Shown piece by piece: positions 41,210 to 51,277 of a stretch of 64,000 nucleotides of DNA. A program made the translations under genes and the position numbers. This DNA is from Earliella scabrosa (taxonomy: Eukaryota; Basidiomycota; Agaricomycetes; Polyporales; Polyporaceae): contig JABYQQ010000013.1 in NCBI GenBank assembly GCA_022605405.1, forward strand, positions 806,001 to 870,000, given 5' to 3'. How positions within the stretch are numbered: position 1 is the first letter of the stretch; every line of letters begins with the position of its first letter. The notes below the pieces were generated by a model. That model was given only the letters and a program-made list of their open reading frames with translations. It was not told the origin of the DNA and ran no database searches.

Positions 41210-41609
41210 GGCGAGCTATGTATGACCTTGGTTTGGGTTCTTTGGGGTTCTGCGTTGTATTCGCATTTGCTGTGGTGCTTCTTTGCTTTTTTCTCCTTCG
41301 TCGTCGTCTCCGTCCGTACACACTTGCCTTCTCTTGCGCTCTGTTTTGCATACATACTGTGCGTCCTGTCATATCATCGTCTCTCTGTCTTCCGTCTTCT
41401 CTCTGTACTCGTAGAGCCTCTGCTAGTTTCCATGGATAATCATGCAACAGATATAAATACAATGTCTCGTGCGCGCACGCCATGTCCGTGTCCGTGTCCG
41501 TGTCCGTGTCCGTGTCCGTGTCCGTGTCCGTTGGTCACTACGAGTTCCTCGAAAAATATTGTGGCTGCTTCTGACCCCAACTATACAGTGACTGTATATG
41601 CAGCAGAGC
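41210..41609. other. Convergent intergenic region with a hexanucleotide array
   Basis: Lies between the stop codons of the adenylate kinase gene and the first DUF6533 gene. It holds the TGTCCG array. Confidence 0.55.
41483..41530 (+). repeat. Microsatellite (TGTCCG)8
   Basis: Eight perfect copies of TGTCCG in the 3' flanks of two convergent genes. The flanks do not continue the motif. Confidence 0.95.
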
Positions 41610-43197
41610 TCAATTCACTAGCTTCATGCGGTCCCACTCGTCTAGATGGAAGAAGAAACGAGAGATTAGAATCGGAGGGAGGCTATGGATGTCTGGTAAG
41701 CCATCAGCAGGGTGAAAGGGCATTGGTGCACTCACAGGTCAAGGAAGGTGCGGATGAGGAAGGGAATGTCGAGGCTGGGAAGGGCAGCGGTGGCCAAGTA
41801 CGTCCCATCCAGAAGCAATCTCGCCCTGTCACGGGAAGCACGTCAAGCCACGGCCACGCGGGCATGATCGTGCATCAGTCAGCTGGGGATTTGGGGGGCG
41901 CGTGTATGCACAGTGCGCGCGGGGAACATGAACAGGACGCACGCGAAGTAGAGCGCGCCCTCGCGCAGGATGAGCGCGGTGAGCGTCATGAGCTGGTGCT
42001 GCTTGCGGTAGCCCGCCCATGCCTGCGCGACGATGACGACGATGACGATCGACTCGGACAGGATCAGGGACGCGCGCGTGAGCACTTCGACTGCGGGGCT
42101 CGTTCAGCGGCGGGTCGTGAAAAGGTCGAGGCGCGGTTGGACTGTACTCACGGCTGGGGCGACATAGTGTCAGCGACGGAGCGACACACATGAATGCTAG
42201 GGGGGATTGGTACGCTCACCTGACGATGTCGTAGTACCTCAGCCTCTGGAGCGGAAAGCAGACGAGAAATTGGAAAGGGTGCGCGGGGCCGATGAAGAGC
42301 TCTGTGAGCGTGTCGAACGCCTGTAATGAGTAGTAGCCAGCGTAAGCGTAACGGTTACATCATGGCTTGTACGCCGCCATAGAGAGAGAGGGCCGGACAT
42401 ACGATGTTAGGGATGATGGGCACCAGCGCAAGCAGAACCACGAGCGATGCGATGATCTTGTTATGTCGACTAATCGCGTACACCCGCAAGCCAGAGAATG
42501 CTGGGGCCGATGATCAGCAATGCGGGGTCCGACAGCGTTAGCATCGGGCGGTCGTTGACTACGAGTTGAGGAGTGGACTGACCTGCCCAAACCACATAGA
42601 CAGCAGCTGTGATCGTCTCCATGAGCCGTGTGAGGAATATGCAACTGCAGAATCCGGTTGCAATATCAGCCTACAGGAACCCAGGAGCTCCAACTCGGAG
42701 TTCACTTGAGCTACGGGACTTGCCTCTGCGAGCGAGCGTATCAGCCATTGTGACGCTGCAGTATGTGGAGTTGATAGACTCACGAAGAACGACACGGGAA
42801 GGAAGGCGCTAGCCATACCGAACACGGAATGTAGCAGGCTGATGTATCGGTTGAGAAAGAAGATGGCCCTTGGCCATGTGAGTTGGCGGCACCAGGCATA
42901 ACGGACCTCACGGTCAAGCGTGATGCAGTACTCAAAGAACAGTATCGCTGTGAGGAGGTCCTGGGTGATCAGCGATGACACAGTGCAGGGAATGGGATGG
43001 GTCGTTCGACGCACTGGACGCTGCCACATACGTGTACTTCATGAGCTCGCTGGTGGGAACACAGCAATGTGAGCTTGAAGGACCACCACACTCCATGGAA
43101 GGCGGGACGCTCACTTTTGCTCGAAGACATCTTCCACCGCCTCCATCAGCTGCGCATTCACCCACCCGTGGGCCTCCGTGCCATTCAATGGCCGCAT
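41610..43197 (-). CDS. DUF6533 multi-pass membrane protein, array copy 1
   Basis: Eleven exons give 285 residues: 43197-43115, 43049-43015, 42947-42784, 42725-42724, 42644-42583, 42500-42403, 42320-42220, 42153-42152, 42090-41943, 41825-41736, 41682-41610. The DUF6533 signature is EYCITLDREVRYAWCRQLTW. Six to seven hydrophobic segments follow, with SGLRVYAISRHNKI and LILREGALYF as family landmarks and a C-terminal LISRFFFHLDEWD. Two exons are only 2 nt (AG at 42724, CC at 42152). Without them the third-span and fifth-span exons shift frame and lose their hydrophobic character. DUF6533 proteins are abundant in mushroom genomes and have no known function. This copy is the most diverged of the four, and its exon 8 is GC-rich. 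Confidence 0.78.
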
Positions 43198-44024
43198 GCT
43201 GCAGGAGAGGGGAGGGGCAGTGAGCCTGAGCAGCGAGGGCCCGACTTCGTATATATGCTGTCGAGAGAACCCATCAAGTGGGAAGCAAGAATGCACTGCG
43301 GCGAGCCTCACCACTGACCAATCTCCGCCCGACCCGATACCTCGATCTCAGGCTAGGAACTTCCGTGCGGCGTGGGTGTATCTTGCTCCCGACGGGCCAG
43401 TGGCATGCGTCTTAGTCGGAGTCATGCACTGTTGACCGTTATGACGGCGTTAGCTCACAGCACTCCGCGAGGAATTGGGTGGCGTGGATGCGGAGGCTGG
43501 AGCCGCACGCATGGAACTGGTGTCTGAATGCCGAGAAGACGTTCTTCTATCTCGCATGCTAATCATCTATGCGTTTTCCGAGGCAACCATTGGTGCCTCC
43601 ACGAGCGCAGCACAGCTGGGCTGTGCTGGAGAGAGCGACAGATTCGATTCTACCTGGGGTTCTCGGATTAGTAAGATGCACTGTCGGGCGGAAGCTGTGT
43701 CTGCGTACTCACCATGCCTCCTCCAGAAAGCGGTAGTCCGATGATCCTGTAGCAGTATCAACTCTGAGAAGGCAAGTGGCGGCTCGGATGTTCGTGAAAA
43801 CTTTCCCTCGCCTCTGGGACGGAATTGTGGGGATGGTGGAGACAGAGGTTCAAGCGTAGAACAACAGTGACCAGCCTGTCATCAACGACGACCGATTCCC
43901 GGTCTTCTGCGGACATACTGATTGACAAGTTGTGGCAGGAAGAAGTCACCGGGTACTATGGCATGCTCGCGAGAGGCCGGATGGTCCTGAGAAGACGTCC
44001 GATTGCCTTCGCGTGATCTCCGAC
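43198..44024. other. Spacer between DUF6533 copies 1 and 2
   Basis: No exon of the family could be recognised here, and no other gene. Short ORFs only. Confidence 0.5.
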
Positions 44025-45438
44025 TCAAATTCTATGGCTCCTTCTGTCCCAATCGTCGACGTGAAAGTAAAATCGAGAGACGCATATTGGGAGTAATCTG
44101 ACATGATGTTGAGTTTAGGTAGGGAGTTTAGGTAGGGCGCGGAGTAGATAATGATGACTTACAGAAGGATGAGGAGCGACAGGAGTGAGAGGGTGGTAGT
44201 TTGAGAAGGAGCAGCAATCGCCGCAAGGAGAAATACCGAGGAGAGCAGGTAAGCGCTGTTGTAGGTCATGTATCTCAGTGATTCTTCGGCATTCATATAT
44301 TCATAGACGAGACTCACATGAAGTAGAGCAGCCCTTCTCTGAGGAGCAGCTGAGTCAAGGAGAGGAGTCGCCCTGCACGATAAATTCTCCATGAGTATAC
44401 CAGGATGGCCACCACCACAACGATTTCCGATATGATAGGGGGTACCAAGGTCAGCATTGTGACTGCGATATGTGCTTTAGTACTTCTTCGCGCTCAGTTG
44501 CGATGCTATCCTTACGACTGACGATGAGCGGATAGCTTCAGTGATTGTGACTGATTGAAGTAGTGAACTTCTTCCTCACCTCAGTGACTGGACTCTATTG
44601 AGTGTACTGTGAGCCGAGCACAGATGGATGGAGAGGGGTTCGACAGTCCGTAGTGAATATGTTGCGTAGGCCTCGACTGTCTGTTTCCGGTCAGCGCGTA
44701 TGACATTTGTGTTACAGACAAAACGAACAATTATGCCAACCACCGGCGGAACGGAACAAAAGAAGACCACCACGGAGGTGATCAGCTTGTTCCGACCACT
44801 GATAACATAGATGCGCAATCCCGAGAATACTGAGGGCTCTCGTGAGCCATTCTGGTTGACGCATCAGGAAAAGTCCCCGCACTAGCACCGCCGATAGACA
44901 ATGCAACTGCAGTCGCATGGATGAAGCGTGCAAGGGAGGTGCAACTGCAAGAATGGAGTGGTCAAGAAGTCAAGATAACTCTACCAGCCAGTCGCAGACT
45001 TGCCTCTGTCGAAATCAGTCAGTACTGAACAGCATGCGAAGCTGGATTAGGATCGGCGGCACATACGGAGTCTGACTTAGGTAAGAATGTGTATGTAAAC
45101 GGTGCGAAGGCATAGATGAAGCCCGTGTAGCGGATGAATAGAAACACCGCCTTGCCCCACGATAGCTTGCGACCCCATGCACATCGGACCTCACGGTCGA
45201 AGGTGATCAAGTACTCGTAGACGACCAGCGCTAAGCATTTTCCAGCCAAGCGGAGATGTCAGCCGCTGTTCGAAACACACAGAAATCCAACTACGCACTG
45301 AGAATCACTAGTTCGAAGTATGCACTAAGGCGGCTAAAGCATAAGTGAGCATATTTCCGTAACCAGAGACGGACGATCCACTCACAGCGCCACAAAGCCT
45401 TGTTCAAGTTCTGTGAGCAACGAGTCCTCGGTTCTCAT
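44025..45438 (-). CDS. DUF6533 multi-pass membrane protein, array copy 2
   Basis: Eleven exons give 276 residues: 45438-45386, 45333-45299, 45230-45067, 45005-45004, 44944-44883, 44829-44729, 44680-44580, 44517-44516, 44462-44318, 44255-44163, 44097-44025. The signature is YEYLITFDREVRCAWGRKLSW; then SGLRIYVISGRNKL, RAGRLLSLTQLLLREGLLYF and RFYFHVDDWD. The 2-nt exons are AG (45004) and TC (44516). The third-span exon encodes exactly 20 residues from Cys to the junction, as in the other three copies, which decided between two possible donors. The relic at 16625-16815 is closest to this copy. Confidence 0.82.
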
Positions 45439-46290
45439 ACTGTAAGATGCGACATAGTGTCTATATTTTCATGTGTTGATATAGTGTCGGAGAGAGTGGC
45501 ACCAACTGTACAGTCCCGCTCCACTACGGACTGTTCGCAGCCCGCCACCACCCGAAGTCGATGCTAAATCTGTTGTCACTTACAAGATACCCTCGTCCTG
45601 ATAATTCACATCTGCTCCATCGGCAGTGGGAATACATGTAGGTGCTGACAACTAGGGGCCCCATTATCAGCATGGACCTATGCAGGTGGCATGATTAGCA
45701 CATACTAGTCGCAGAACGCTGTAGACCATGCACCATGACGACTGCTAAGCGAGTAGACTCGTTCTGCCAACAAGCTGCAAGACGCTTCCTGTTCCGCGCC
45801 TTCCAAGGTTTGGTGTGAAGCCGTATGGCGTGCGACTCTGAAACATTGATCCGGAAGGAGAGGTGTGGAGAAGTGGAACGTACGTGGCAATCGGCCACCG
45901 TCGAGTCGCTGAGCTGCGGTCCTGGATTCCCTCGGCAGTGCACGCCAATCCTAGAAGTGCACCTCTGACCATCCAGTATCATCGCCCGCCTTCAACGTGA
46001 AACAGGCGGAGCTCCTCCGTACTCCCCAGATCCACATATTGTCGCCTTCGCACGCAAGCCACCACCACTGAAGAGGAAAACGACTAGATGTATTCAGCCT
46101 CACTGGCGGCTGGCGAGGAGTCGACTGAGTTCAGCGTTGCATAGAGGAGCGACGGCCGGTGTCATTCTCGGTACGCAAACAAGAGCATGAGGCGGATGGC
46201 GCTGCTCTCTGCGATGGCAGGCCGTACCCTAATTCTAGTCGCCGAACATCACTGCATGTTACGATACAAGCCGGACAGGACTAACTCACA
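45439..46290. other. Spacer between DUF6533 copies 2 and 3
   Basis: No family exon or other gene recognised. Presumably the promoter of copy 2 (minus strand) and the 3' flank of copy 3. Confidence 0.5.
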
Positions 46291-47727
46291 TTACAAACTA
46301 TCTGAATCAACGCCCTTAAGCCTTCTACGGTTCCAGTCGTCCACGTGAAAGTAGAATCGGCAAACGAGGATTGGAAGGAGCCTAGTCTACTCGTGAGCGG
46401 GTACATCGTGCAAACCGAATACAAAGACTCACAGCGATATGTTCGATGATATGAGATATGAGATAACAGAATGAGGGACATAAACGATGACGAGGGCAAG
46501 AGTCAAGGAGAGGATATAAGTGCTATAACATGTCAATTGTCAGACCTAAGGACGTGGAGGTTGCTCGAGGGACCTACACAAAGTAGAGCAAGCCCTCTCG
46601 CAGCAGCAATTGAGTTAAGGACATGATCTGTCCTCCTGTGCGATACATTCTCCACGTATACACCACAATCGTCGCCACCGCCATGATTTCTGCAAGTAAT
46701 GCAGTCGCCAAGTATAGTACGACCACTATGCAAAGCTTAAGGTATTTGCCCATGCTTGGCTTCACTAGAAGATTTCCTTACCACTGGAGAATGCACTACC
46801 CAGTGAACAAACCTAGATGCAGGCAAAGCGAAGGAATCGTGCCCACCTTTGTGTTTGAGTCTTGTTGAGGGTACTCTTCATATCACAAATACGGATGGGG
46901 AAGGGATCAATGGTGAACAGCGAGAACGCCGTGTATACCACCCTGGTCTGCGCACGCCGTGAGTATGATATTAAGGAGTCATAGTGGTGAAGAGACTGAC
47001 AATCAGGGCCACACACGGCACAATAACGCCGAGGAAGATGACCATAGAGGTGACGACTTTGTTCCGTCCACTGATCACGTATACCCGCATTCCCGAGAAC
47101 ACTATGATGCATCCCTGTAGGCCTCTTGTGGAGTCACGATGAAGAACGTGGACGCACCGGCCAAACCCATCGACTGTGCGATTGCAATCGCATAGACGAG
47201 ATAGGGAAGGAGGACACAACTACGTAGGAGTCAGATATTGGTCGATGAGGGATGAGGAAGTCAGAATCAGTCAGATGGTAATTCAATCATCATGTCGTAG
47301 ACTTGCCTCTGTCAATGCAGATCAGGGAAGGCACAAACGCTCGAATGGCAAGTCACACGTACAAATTTCGTCGGAGCAAGAATCCCACTTGCGAACATCC
47401 CGAGGGCAAGGATAAGTGTGGTATAGCGAAGTAGAAAGAACAGGGCTTTTCCCGGCGATAGTTTGCGGGCGCATATGCAACGAGCTTCGCGGTCAATAGT
47501 GATGAGATGCTCGTAGAACAACATTGCTATGCGAAGATGTGATGTCTGTGAGCCTACGGAAGTAGAGAACGCTATCCACGCACCGGACCCCGCCACGAGA
47601 TTGTATCGATTCCATTGACTAGAGTATAGGTGAGCCGAGCTGGCATGCTGTTGAGCCCTTGGTAATAATGTACTCACAGTACCGCATACCCTTCCTCGAG
47701 GTCTACTATATTTGATGGAGTGTCCAT
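46291..47727 (-). CDS. DUF6533 multi-pass membrane protein, array copy 3
   Basis: Eleven exons give 281 residues: 47727-47678, 47618-47584, 47526-47363, 47308-47307, 47219-47158, 47101-47001, 46947-46847, 46783-46782, 46725-46578, 46522-46433, 46381-46291. The signature is YEHLITIDREARCICARKLS; then SGMRVYVISGRNKVV, TGGQIMSLTQLLLREGLLYF and CRFYFHVDDWNRR. The 2-nt exons are AG (47307) and TG (46782). Exons 2, 3 and 4 have the same lengths (35, 164, 62 nt) in all four copies, so the gene structure is older than the duplications. Confidence 0.82.
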
Positions 47728-48001
47728 GCTATCCGATGAGACGAAGTATCCGGAGGACTAGACCTAGGATATCATATATCTGTTAGCGTTCGTTGGCACT
47801 CCCCGTGCGATCGTGTCGGCTGCTGCATTCTTATAAAGGGAGGTCGATGACGTCTGTCAAACAGTGGACTCATGTGCATACGAAACTAGCTGTCCGTTCA
47901 GCTCCCCAAACGACGCTGGCACGTCACTGTACGACAGCATCGGAGCCGCAGCATGCACTCTATCATCGATGTCGGTAGACCAAGACGCCACACGTCTGAA
48001 T

Positions 48002-49471
48002 CTAAACACCAGAGAGCAGACTCGAAGCGTCCTGTAACGCCGTCCTTCTGCGATGGCTCCATTGGACCTTTTGAGGTTCGCGATCCCAATCGTCCATATG
48101 GATGTAGAATCGGGAGATGAGGACCGGAGGCATCCTGAGACGATATGAAGGTCATGAGTGTGACTGCAGACGCCAGTATGTCAAAGGGCGGTAACCTACG
48201 CGCCGAGGGCGATGGACACCAGCGTCGGGTACATAGGATTAGGTATGATGGCAATGACGACGAAGAGCATGCCAAGGAATGCGTACGCGCTGTTGTGTCA
48301 GTCTGTCAGCCCTGACGCATGCGGTCCCTCAATCGGCCGGAACTCACATGAAGTAGAGCAGCCCTTCCCGTAAGAGCAACTGCGTCAAGGATAGGAGCTG
48401 GCCGCCGGCCCGATATACACGCCATGAATATAACACGATCGTCACGACGACCATGAGTTCGGACGCCAGGACGGGGCACAAGCCCAGCAGGACGACTGCG
48501 GAAGTTGTCAGCTACGCTAGGTTACCAACGATGCACTCTAGGTTGCTCACCGCTGACGACAACATCGCCAGGCCCGGGTCAGCTACACCTGTACAGGAAC
48601 ACGAAATATCTGGGTCGCACCTGAAATATTCCATCTTATCCAATGCCATATCTGCAGTGCACAAACGAATAGAAAGGGGATCGATGGACTGAAGGTGGTC
48701 CACATTCGTTATCTCGAACACCTGGAGGGGTGTCAGTGTTCGCGATCCCATGATGTCAATGAAGGACGGAACATACTATTGTAGTCACCACTGGCGGAAC
48801 AGCGGCTAGGATAACGACCAGCGAGGTGATGATCTTATTAGACCCGCTGACCGTGTAAGCCCGCAGACCCGAGAATGCTAGGAAGTCTGTCAGAAAAAAT
48901 GCAATCTCGCACACAGCGGAGACGTGGACATAGTACAGGCGCATGCTGCATATTGGGCGATTTTCACGATGTTTGAGAAGTGCGCCAAGAATGCACAACT
49001 ACAGCATCGAAGGCAGTCATATCATGGGCTCGCTGATCGCTGATTAGACGACTTGCCTCTGCGAACAGGATCAGTGGTTATTGCCTTGGATGGGAGAAAC
49101 AGTGCCACGCACGAAGATTGGTCCAGGCAAGAACTCAAAAGCAAAGCCTTGGAGCACAAGGAGGAGGCCAATGTACCGACTGAACAGAAAGATGGCCTTC
49201 CCCCACGATAGCTTGTGGCTCCAGGCGATCCCGATTTCGCGGTCGAAGGTAATGAAGTACTCATATAGCAAGAGGGCTGGCAGAAGCTGCGTTAACACCT
49301 CGCCCACGGTCAGCGTATCAAAACTCACCAAGGACAGCAACGGTAATGTTCTTATACGCCCGGCTACGGTGGTGTCTTCGGATACGCATCCAGTAACAGT
49401 AGAGCTCTTTGATGTACTCACGTCGTTGCTGAGATATCCTCCAGCTCTGCAAGTGTTTGCATATGGGTCAT
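48002..49471 (-). CDS. DUF6533 multi-pass membrane protein, array copy 4
   Basis: Eleven exons give 295 residues: 49471-49422, 49363-49329, 49276-49113, 49058-49057, 48998-48937, 48877-48777, 48721-48621, 48552-48551, 48495-48348, 48289-48200, 48134-48002. The signature is YEYFITFDREIGIAWSHKLSW; then SGLRAYTVSGSNKI, AGGQLLSLTQLLLREGLLYF and SRFYIHMDDWDRE. The 2-nt exons are AG (49057) and CG (48551). The start ATG at 49471 is chosen because it gives the same phase at the first junction as the other copies; an ATG further upstream (49514) is in a different frame. Its C-terminal tail is longer than those of copies 1-3. Confidence 0.82.
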
Positions 49472-50230: not shown

Positions 50231-51277
50231 TCACATTTTGACAGGGTACAGACCCTCTGGAAATCCACGCTGAGTCTCTTCGTAGATGAGCTCCAAACCC
50301 GCGTCCGCGAAGCATTGCTTCCACGCCAGATCAGACCTTGAGAACGATGTCATCGTCAGAATGCATACTAATCCTAGAGCATAAACTCACCGTGTCAAGC
50401 TGGAATCGCTCTCGTCAAAAACCGCACGGGGCCCTCCATCCTCCGAACACGTATTCTCCTTCACGACAACGAGTCCTTTGGCAGGATCTCGCAAGGCGGT
50501 CTTGCACTTCCGAAAGAACTTGATGAGGTCCGGATCGTTCATCGCTCCCAGACACCATTGGCACATCACCACATCGAACTTGTCGTCGAGATCATCGGAG
50601 GGCGGTACGTAGCCGATGCGGCCCAGGACCTTCGTCTTCGAGTTCACCGCCGTGGCAGGGTGAGTGGGATCGAGGTCCTGCAAGGTGGCTTGGATGAAGG
50701 TTACACTCTTTGATTTATCGCGGATGCCTTTCCATGGAACAACCTCCAGCTCGTGACCTTCGATTTCGGGCGAAGGCGTTGATTCGGCCTCACTAGCCTT
50801 GCCCCGTCGCATGGCCTCCTTCACGAAAGGTTCGACGGGTTCAACGAGGACGACATCGGAGAAGAGGTGGAGAATGACGTCTGCAGTCACGCGCCCGACG
50901 CCTGCACCAACGTCAAGGGCGCGTGTGCGTCGCTGTGCGCGGCGCCGTGGGACCTCGAGGTGCAGTGGGCGGATAGCAGAAGGAACGATGCATAATTCGG
51001 GAAGGAGGTAGAGCAAGAATTGGCGTGTACCGAGCGCATCGACTCTTGGAAGTGACTGGATTGCAAGTTTGAATGGAGCGCAAGATCAGCACTACTGACT
51101 GGGACGCACCCCATTTCCATAGCCGCCTGGAGATTGAGATCACTCTCAGCGGATATTGCTGTGGAGGGGAGGCATACCAAGGACGCCGTCATAACTTGCA
51201 GGCTGCGAGGCCCAGTACTCGATGCCTTTGTCGACGTCGGGGTCGGGAAGTGGTTTAGAGGGCGTTTCAGAGGACAT
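50231..51277 (-). CDS. Alpha-N-terminal protein methyltransferase, NTM1-like
   Basis: Four exons (51277-51178, 51126-51110, 51055-50391, 50336-50231) give 295 residues. KGIEYWASQPASYDGVLGGYGNG is reconstructed only if a 17-nt exon (51126-51110) is included; it supplies GYGNG. SLPRVDALGTRQFLL, the SAM-binding ALDVGAGVGRVT and MCQWCLGAMNDPD are the NTM1/Tae1 landmarks. The enzyme class methylates the N-terminal amine of proteins starting X-Pro-Lys after Met removal, including ribosomal proteins. An insert of about 30 residues (KASEAESTPSPEIEGHELE) sits after the third strand. It diverges from CSM3 over 156 bp. Confidence 0.88.

Follow-up and report, generated by a model that had tools for sequence, protein, structure and literature searches.

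The window analysed here is a 64,000-nucleotide stretch of the Earliella scabrosa genome (C13:806001-870000; the assembly comprises 51.7 Mb in 48 contigs). It contains four tandem DUF6533 genes on the minus strand, which we call A, B, C and D. Genes B, C and D lie over the curated cut-off of the DUF6533 family (PF20151) at C13:851115, 853411 and 855161, respectively. Across the assembly, DUF6533 matches were found in at least 150 places (150 scored of 233 candidates); gene A lies outside these scored places and fits the family profile built here with a score of 195. The family includes the fruiting-body gene snb1 (PMC10949477). A preliminary description of the window had proposed that each of the four genes carries an exon of two nucleotides (nt), the dinucleotide AG, followed by a GC donor. 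Exons this tiny are very rare and difficult for the splicing machinery.

All four proposed sites of the form CAG/AG/GCAAGT (slashes mark exon borders) are present. The motif CAGAGGCAAGT occurs exactly four times in the window, always on the minus strand and at the AG positions listed in Table 1, compared with a mean of 0.02 and a maximum of 1 in 100 dinucleotide shuffles. The upstream exon ends in phase 0 and the next exon begins with TTG(C/T) in every copy, and the intron sizes were also given correctly. The flanking introns have indeed diverged: pairwise identity over both introns is 0.16-0.42, which is chance level (mean 0.31 in 20 shuffles of the upstream intron), while the preceding DUF6533 exon retains 0.53-0.63. 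At this position, site 1, the exon splits a codon (AG + T, which is serine in genes A to D), and the codon that follows encodes a conserved cysteine at the start of the predicted third transmembrane helix (TM3). Skipping the AG would shift the frame and produce a stop 30 codons on in gene A, 77 in gene B, 60 in gene C and 33 in gene D, with loss of the downstream hydrophobic span, as had been expected.

A second predicted 2-nt exon, missed by the preliminary description, precedes the exon encoding TM5/6 in every window gene; the dinucleotides are CC, TC, TG and CG in genes A to D. When gene B was built by hand, its frame was again short by two bases before the TM5/6 exon, and cag/TC/gtaagg mends it. 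At both sites, the 2-nt exon was the top-scoring frame-restoring path in all eight window cases, with score margins of at least 3.7 in those other than gene A site 1 and gene C site 2. Run without a protein profile and with small exons free of cost, a codon-only gene-finder recovered site 1 in four of four and site 2 in three of four window genes. Skipping of site 2 leads to a stop in genes A and D; for genes B and C, the modelled part contains no such stop.

Table 1. Candidate 2-nt exons and modelled neighbouring exons of the four DUF6533 genes (window positions).
Feature	Position	Strand	Introns before / after (nt)	Remarks
Gene D, DUF6533 exon before site 1	49113..49277	-		modelled from domain start; phase-0 end
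Gene D, site 1, 2-nt exon AG	49057..49058	-	54 / 58	GC donor (gcaagt)
Gene D, 62-nt exon after site 1	48937..48998	-		starts T TGT (Cys)
Gene D, site 2, 2-nt exon CG	48551..48552	-	68 / 55	GT donor (gtgagc)
Gene D, TM5/6 exon after site 2	48348..48495	-		profile model
Gene C, DUF6533 exon before site 1	47363..47530	-		modelled from domain start; phase-0 end
Gene C, site 1, 2-nt exon AG	47307..47308	-	54 / 87	GC donor; sole frame-restoring candidate found
Gene C, 62-nt exon after site 1	47158..47219	-		starts T TGT
Gene C, site 2, 2-nt exon TG	46782..46783	-	63 / 56	GT donor (gtaagg); in profile model, missed by codon-only gene-finder
Gene C, TM5/6 exon after site 2	46578..46725	-		profile model
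Gene B, DUF6533 exon before site 1	45067..45237	-		modelled from domain start (hand model start 45230); phase-0 end
Gene B, site 1, 2-nt exon AG	45004..45005	-	61 / 59	GC donor
Gene B, exon after site 1	44883..44944	-		starts T TGC; profile model 62 nt, hand model end 44889
Gene B, site 2, 2-nt exon TC	44516..44517	-	62 / 53	GT donor (gtaagg)
Gene B, TM5/6 exon after site 2	44318..44462	-		profile and hand model
Gene A, DUF6533-like exon before site 1	42784..42945	-		modelled from chosen in-frame start; phase-0 end
Gene A, site 1, 2-nt exon AG	42724..42725	-	58 / 79	GC donor
Gene A, 62-nt exon after site 1	42583..42644	-		starts T TGC
Gene A, site 2, 2-nt exon CC	42152..42153	-	66 / 61	GT donor (gtgagt)
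Gene A, TM5/6 exon after site 2	41943..42090	-		profile model

Two further features border the array. Upstream of gene D, an open frame on the minus strand (50387-51016) contains a stretch, DVGAGVGRVT, which we take to be a methyltransferase-like S-adenosylmethionine-binding motif. Downstream of gene A lies a brief tandem GGACAC run (about 41500-41525) that may reach below 41500.

The AG exon had been described as a feature of the four tandem genes. It is present in all four, but it is not limited to them and recurs across the DUF6533 family. We modelled 95 loci by profile-guided spliced alignment; splice weights were set by hand, exon length carried no preference and intron length a slight one. 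These loci comprise the four window genes and 91 others, namely the 30 best DUF6533 matches, the next 60 outside the window and L091, which was chosen for carrying AGAGGCAAGT; 56 of the 150 scored places lie beyond the survey. Two loci, L027 and L028 (C2:1324794 and 1335270), yield one and the same model. The DUF6533 places there are repeated about 10.5 kb apart, as are those at 1322312 and 1332788 with equal scores, and the repeat is either a recent tandem duplication or a duplication in the assembly. Most loci share an exon pattern of about 165, 2, 62, 95-98, 83-92, 2, 141, 16 and 49 nt, in which 62 nt is the usual family length of the exon after site 1. The 3'-end exons of near-constant length (16 nt, then 49 nt) are found in most family loci, for example L057; the window clade is without the 16-nt exon.

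At site 1, the exon was 2 nt long in 82 of the 95 loci, 8 nt in three, 5 nt in one and 6 nt in one, with none called in eight. The corresponding numbers at site 2 were 79 with 2 nt, four with 8 nt, one with 6 nt and 11 with none. The length variants are thus mostly 2 modulo 3 (5 and 8 nt), with one 6-nt call at each site; the one at site 2, in L091, has a 2-nt exon AT just ahead of it. Exons of 8 nt replace the 2-nt exon in L048, L072 and L080 at site 1 and in L004, L021, L068 and L074 at site 2, which represents in-frame growth of the microexon by two codons. AG is the most common dinucleotide at site 1 (54 loci, followed by GG in 13, AC in six, AT in five and four singles). Site 2 is more varied (AT 25, AC 9, CC 7, CT 6, TC 6 and others), with AG in just four of 79. 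The introns flanking 2-nt exons have a median length of 58 nt on either side, and the 568 other introns in the models have a median of 59 nt. In 74 of 78 loci tested, the model runs into a stop when the site-1 exon is skipped.

The GC donor, reported for all four window genes, is real in these copies but is a lineage variant confined to most of the window clade and one distant locus, the family norm being GT. It was found at site 1 in six of 81 loci (genes A-D, L064 and L091), and the rest have GT at the same place, including L017 and L046 within the window clade. L012 shows GCAAGT too, but with a low family score (71). On the tree, GC donors require three changes and are clustered without forming one clade, and we rejected the GC donor as a common family feature. 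Genome-wide, the 10-mer AGAGGCAAGT was not enriched (121 matches versus 154 for the reversed-pattern control).

A few paralogs are without an intron on one side of the dinucleotide. At site 1, this is the downstream intron in L007, L076 and L051, where the acceptor leads straight into the two bases and the next exon (cag/AGCTGC in L007 and L076, cag/ATCTGC in L051). At site 2, it is the upstream intron that L035 and L058 lack, and their dinucleotide closes the upstream exon. Such forms would be expected of a coding dinucleotide. They also bear on stwintrons, in which a splice signal of the outer intron is interrupted by an inner one, with zero exonic bases between the two. Similar nesting with two consecutive splicing reactions is known from fungi (PMC9024468, PMC12403724), but a zero-length exon would leave the frame two bases short, with the premature stops described above, and the dinucleotide is fused to an exon where one intron is missing. 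Given two bases that are needed by the frame and kept in intron-lacking paralogs, the defining feature of a stwintron, that no exonic base is left, is absent here, and we consider this explanation very improbable. Both halves of a 91-protein tree, as divided at its midpoint root, contain the predicted site-1 exon, and on this rooting the putative exon is therefore older than the split of these paralogs.

Several controls addressed the length of the exon. Of the loci already called as 2-nt, 71 of 81 at site 1 and 74 of 79 at site 2 again gave 2 nt as the length of the best internal exon (range 1-30 nt) when neither frame nor protein information was used. When four junction columns of the profile were masked, a 2-nt exon was still obtained at site 1 in 77 of 81 real loci (the 82 called minus L012) versus 35 of 324 controls with a dinucleotide-shuffled interior. 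A gain of at least 8 over the best parse without exons below 9 nt was seen in 41 of 81 real loci versus eight of 324 shuffles. The combined acceptor and branch score had a median of 7.5 before 2-nt exons (n=161) versus 4.2 at control AGs (n=277), and CTNAY occurred upstream in 134 of 165 cases.

The AG had been held to be the sole repair of the frame at site 1. It has the top score in all four genes and is the only candidate in gene C, but stop-free candidates numbered 22, 5, 1 and 6 in genes A, B, C and D. The 2-nt exon might be a by-product of consensus matching, with a longer internal exon or a shifted donor or acceptor actually used. For gene A, the candidate is the 11-nt exon AGGCAAGTCCC, which the public gene model P0001 uses and which scores 9.3, close to the 10.0 of AG. 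In gene B, a one-intron path 10 nt upstream scores 2.3 versus 8.9. We also scored seven frame-restoring offsets of the upstream donor (-7 to +11); a donor above 0 was obtained in 12 of 81 loci, all outside the window. Such shifted donors would leave a single intron of 103-143 nt, a size range in which other introns are scarce (at least 100 nt in 8 of 551). We enumerated the single-intron and longer-exon readings in the window, and all score below the 2-nt exon. Moreover, the candidates vary between copies, length 2 dominates without frame information, and exactly two bases are kept in paralogs without one intron. A longer exon or shifted splice site thus appears improbable to us.

Public proteins, of which 120 of 274 matches are listed, provide a further comparison. 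In P0003, the model of L002, the site-1 junction (TPQSCPPLVRV) is identical to our spliced-alignment model, and P0090 and P0091 also read Ser-Cys, with one residue ahead of the cysteine. Six proteins from short contigs labelled lgn or jgi (P0053, P0054, P0086, P0111, P0120 and P0121) are uninterrupted through the junction, with one residue before the cysteine. The label lgn presumably refers to Logan assemblies, and these six proteins possibly derive from spliced RNA or complementary DNA; their bearing on inclusion of the exon in transcripts is indirect.

A number of observations weigh against 2-nt exons, and many come from public gene models of Earliella. P0001 is a 424-residue public model that fuses genes A and B (43197-41643 and 45438-44027), drops most of gene B and reads RQVP at site 1 of gene A. 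P0002 reads GLSC at the junction, and P0005, P0027, P0072 and P0080 have Val-Cys, with valine in place of serine, a reading that a GTGTGT double donor would permit in L031 and L041. Extra stretches appear at the junction in P0019 and P0069, the junction is missing from P0039, and P0003 differs from the L002 model at site 2 (VYSMFVIV versus VYSIIVIV). In the window, the margin at gene C site 2 is small (4.1 versus 3.1 for a 14-nt alternative), and it is this TG exon that the codon-only gene-finder misses. Eight of the 95 loci are without a called microexon at site 1, and 11 are without one at site 2; some of these models are poor (L012, L014, L053), and L001, L003, L014, L030 and L044, without a site-1 call, are ambiguous or badly modelled. 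Masking cost four of 81 real loci their call, and among the 324 shuffles 35 gained a 2-nt exon and 89 some exon below 9 nt. In addition, the profile was trained on exon-containing models, masking covered just four junction columns and was confined to the shuffle control, and the splice weights were set by hand. The divergent Earliella models suggest frequent misannotation, yet they are also the main evidence against a 2-nt exon at those loci.

The failure of the public annotation on genes A and B would also be expected of decaying pseudogenes in which the frame break is genuine. However, the frame as modelled is open from the DUF6533 exon to near the C-terminus and the splice sites match the consensus in four of four copies; the introns are at chance identity while the DUF6533 exon keeps 0.53-0.63, and the pattern recurs in other members of the family. 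Decay can hardly account for these genes.

The arrangement of splice sites, its recurrence, the repair of the frame and the paralogs lacking one intron are read directly from the DNA. Based on the splice-site scores, the recurrence at one protein column and the paralogs without one intron, the predicted 2-nt exon at site 1 is strongly supported. Taking both sites together, we consider it highly probable that genes of the DUF6533 family, whose products are predicted seven-helix proteins, carry two constitutive 2-nt exons.

Each of these exons would be flanked by short introns of the ordinary type, both equipped with a donor, a branch-point-like site and an acceptor, and would be recognised by intron definition, which should suffice because the flanking introns are short and complete. 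Acceptor and donor signals overlap around the two bases, so the introns would most likely be removed one after the other; simultaneous splicing appears unlikely. We infer that splicing proceeds in this way in vivo, with constitutive inclusion and a defined order of removal. If the upstream intron left first, the joined AG would rebuild the exon side of the next donor (AG/GCAAGT here, AG/GT elsewhere). The AG/GCAAGT so formed matches the donor consensus.

Splicing would be recursive in the strict sense if this rebuilt donor, consisting of the AG and the last base of the upstream exon, were required for removal of the downstream intron. Donor strength at site 1 differs between the two introns, the upstream donor scoring higher (mean at +3 to +6 of 2.22 versus 0.92 downstream, paired P=8e-8, 80 loci). 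Downstream donors are weaker after AG exons (0.70, n=54) than after other dinucleotides (1.36, n=27; P=0.04), a sign that AG on the exon side may be recognised together with the donor. The GC copies, with their perfect AAGT, fit the same donor compensation. On the other hand, site-2 donors are about equal (2.26 versus 2.10, P=0.33, 79 loci) and the exon there is rarely AG, so a rebuilt AG would not generally be needed. The last base of the upstream exon showed no significant link with donor strength (P=0.10 and 0.85), the pairing of AG with a donor would aid the opposite order too, and a 9-nt exon of potato invertase loses its downstream intron first, as told in PMC4674806. We judge the arguments for and against such a recursive order to be evenly balanced.

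In the protein, the residue that follows the codon split at site 1 is Cys84. Both it and Cys152 are conserved without exception in an alignment of 30 rows (chosen from 121 proteins, with preference for well-formed ones). An AlphaFold model of the homologue P0006 from Lentinus tigrinus (predicted local distance difference test score 82) shows nine DSSP helices, which can be read as seven membrane helices in the model, and a hairpin that holds Cys152. In a Foldseek search with this model, the fifty best PDB matches were all G-protein-coupled receptors (GPCRs), with TM-scores of 0.33-0.45 by query length and a best E-value of 8.6e-4; just two of 1,141 matches reached E≤0.001. By analogy with class A GPCRs, Cys84 and Cys152 may form a disulfide. 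The predicted exons also suggest that many DUF6533 gene models are in error at precisely the TM3 cysteine. In a more speculative and rather doubtful extension, the exon pairs inherited by DUF6533 receptors of mushroom-forming fungi would be obligate ordered-splicing cassettes, in which the overlap of acceptor and donor signals imposes an order on intron removal; the yield of full-length receptor would depend on this order and may be regulated through skipping and decay. If so, about 250 2-nt exons, by extrapolation to the at least 150 DUF6533 places, might constitute the largest known set.

Among known systems, the plant genes APC11 and VPS55 each contain a 1-nt exon with proof from RNA, and recursive splicing was earlier proposed for the Arabidopsis 1-nt exon (PMC4674806, PMC8831610). 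Read aligners cope badly with exons of less than 3 nt (PMC8831610). As in these genes, the Earliella exons would be too short for exon definition, needed by the protein, flanked by ordinary introns, missed by annotation and matched by intron-free relatives. The plant exons differ in having 1 nt and one site per gene, compared with 2 nt, two sites per gene and about 80 paralogs per site within one fungal genome; site 2 is mostly not AG, and the Earliella exons are predicted from sequence. Another 1-nt exon, at one position of one P450 subfamily (20 orthologs), was described with RNA reads for Fusarium CYP621A (PMC12940212). Both cases are fungal, involve short introns and were argued from the frame and an intron-free relative, but CYP621A is a 1-nt ascomycete case backed by reads, and the candidate exons described here are 2-nt exons of a basidiomycete family.

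Stwintrons of Hypoxylaceae (PMC9024468) are the nearest fungal arrangement, as two fungal introns abut and are removed in consecutive reactions; unlike them, the Earliella sites keep two coding bases between the introns. P450 genes of Phanerochaete chrysosporium, also a white-rot basidiomycete, likewise combine short introns with tiny exons across a large gene family, but the shortest reported there has 6 bp (PMC1184071). Our searches found no relatives in viral contigs, and no 2-nt exons of DUF6533 genes in the literature searched (titles and abstract openings), in which two papers mention DUF6533 itself (PMC10949477, PMC8955403). GC-AG introns are a known class. GCAAGT after AG in genes A-D, L064 and L091 conforms to it, whereas the rest of the 81 site-1 exons are followed by GT. 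While the 1-nt exons in the cited literature are single positions in single gene lineages, the one Earliella genome yields models of about 160 2-nt exons, 82 at the first and 79 at the second of two homologous positions. They vary naturally in dinucleotide, donor strength, GC versus GT, length (2, 5 or 8 nt) and absence of either intron; nature thereby supplies a replicated experiment on the handling of exons that are smaller than the footprints of the spliceosome, and on intron order. Exons of this kind are known; what is new, within the literature searched, is that a large gene family conserves two of them, each of 2 nt.

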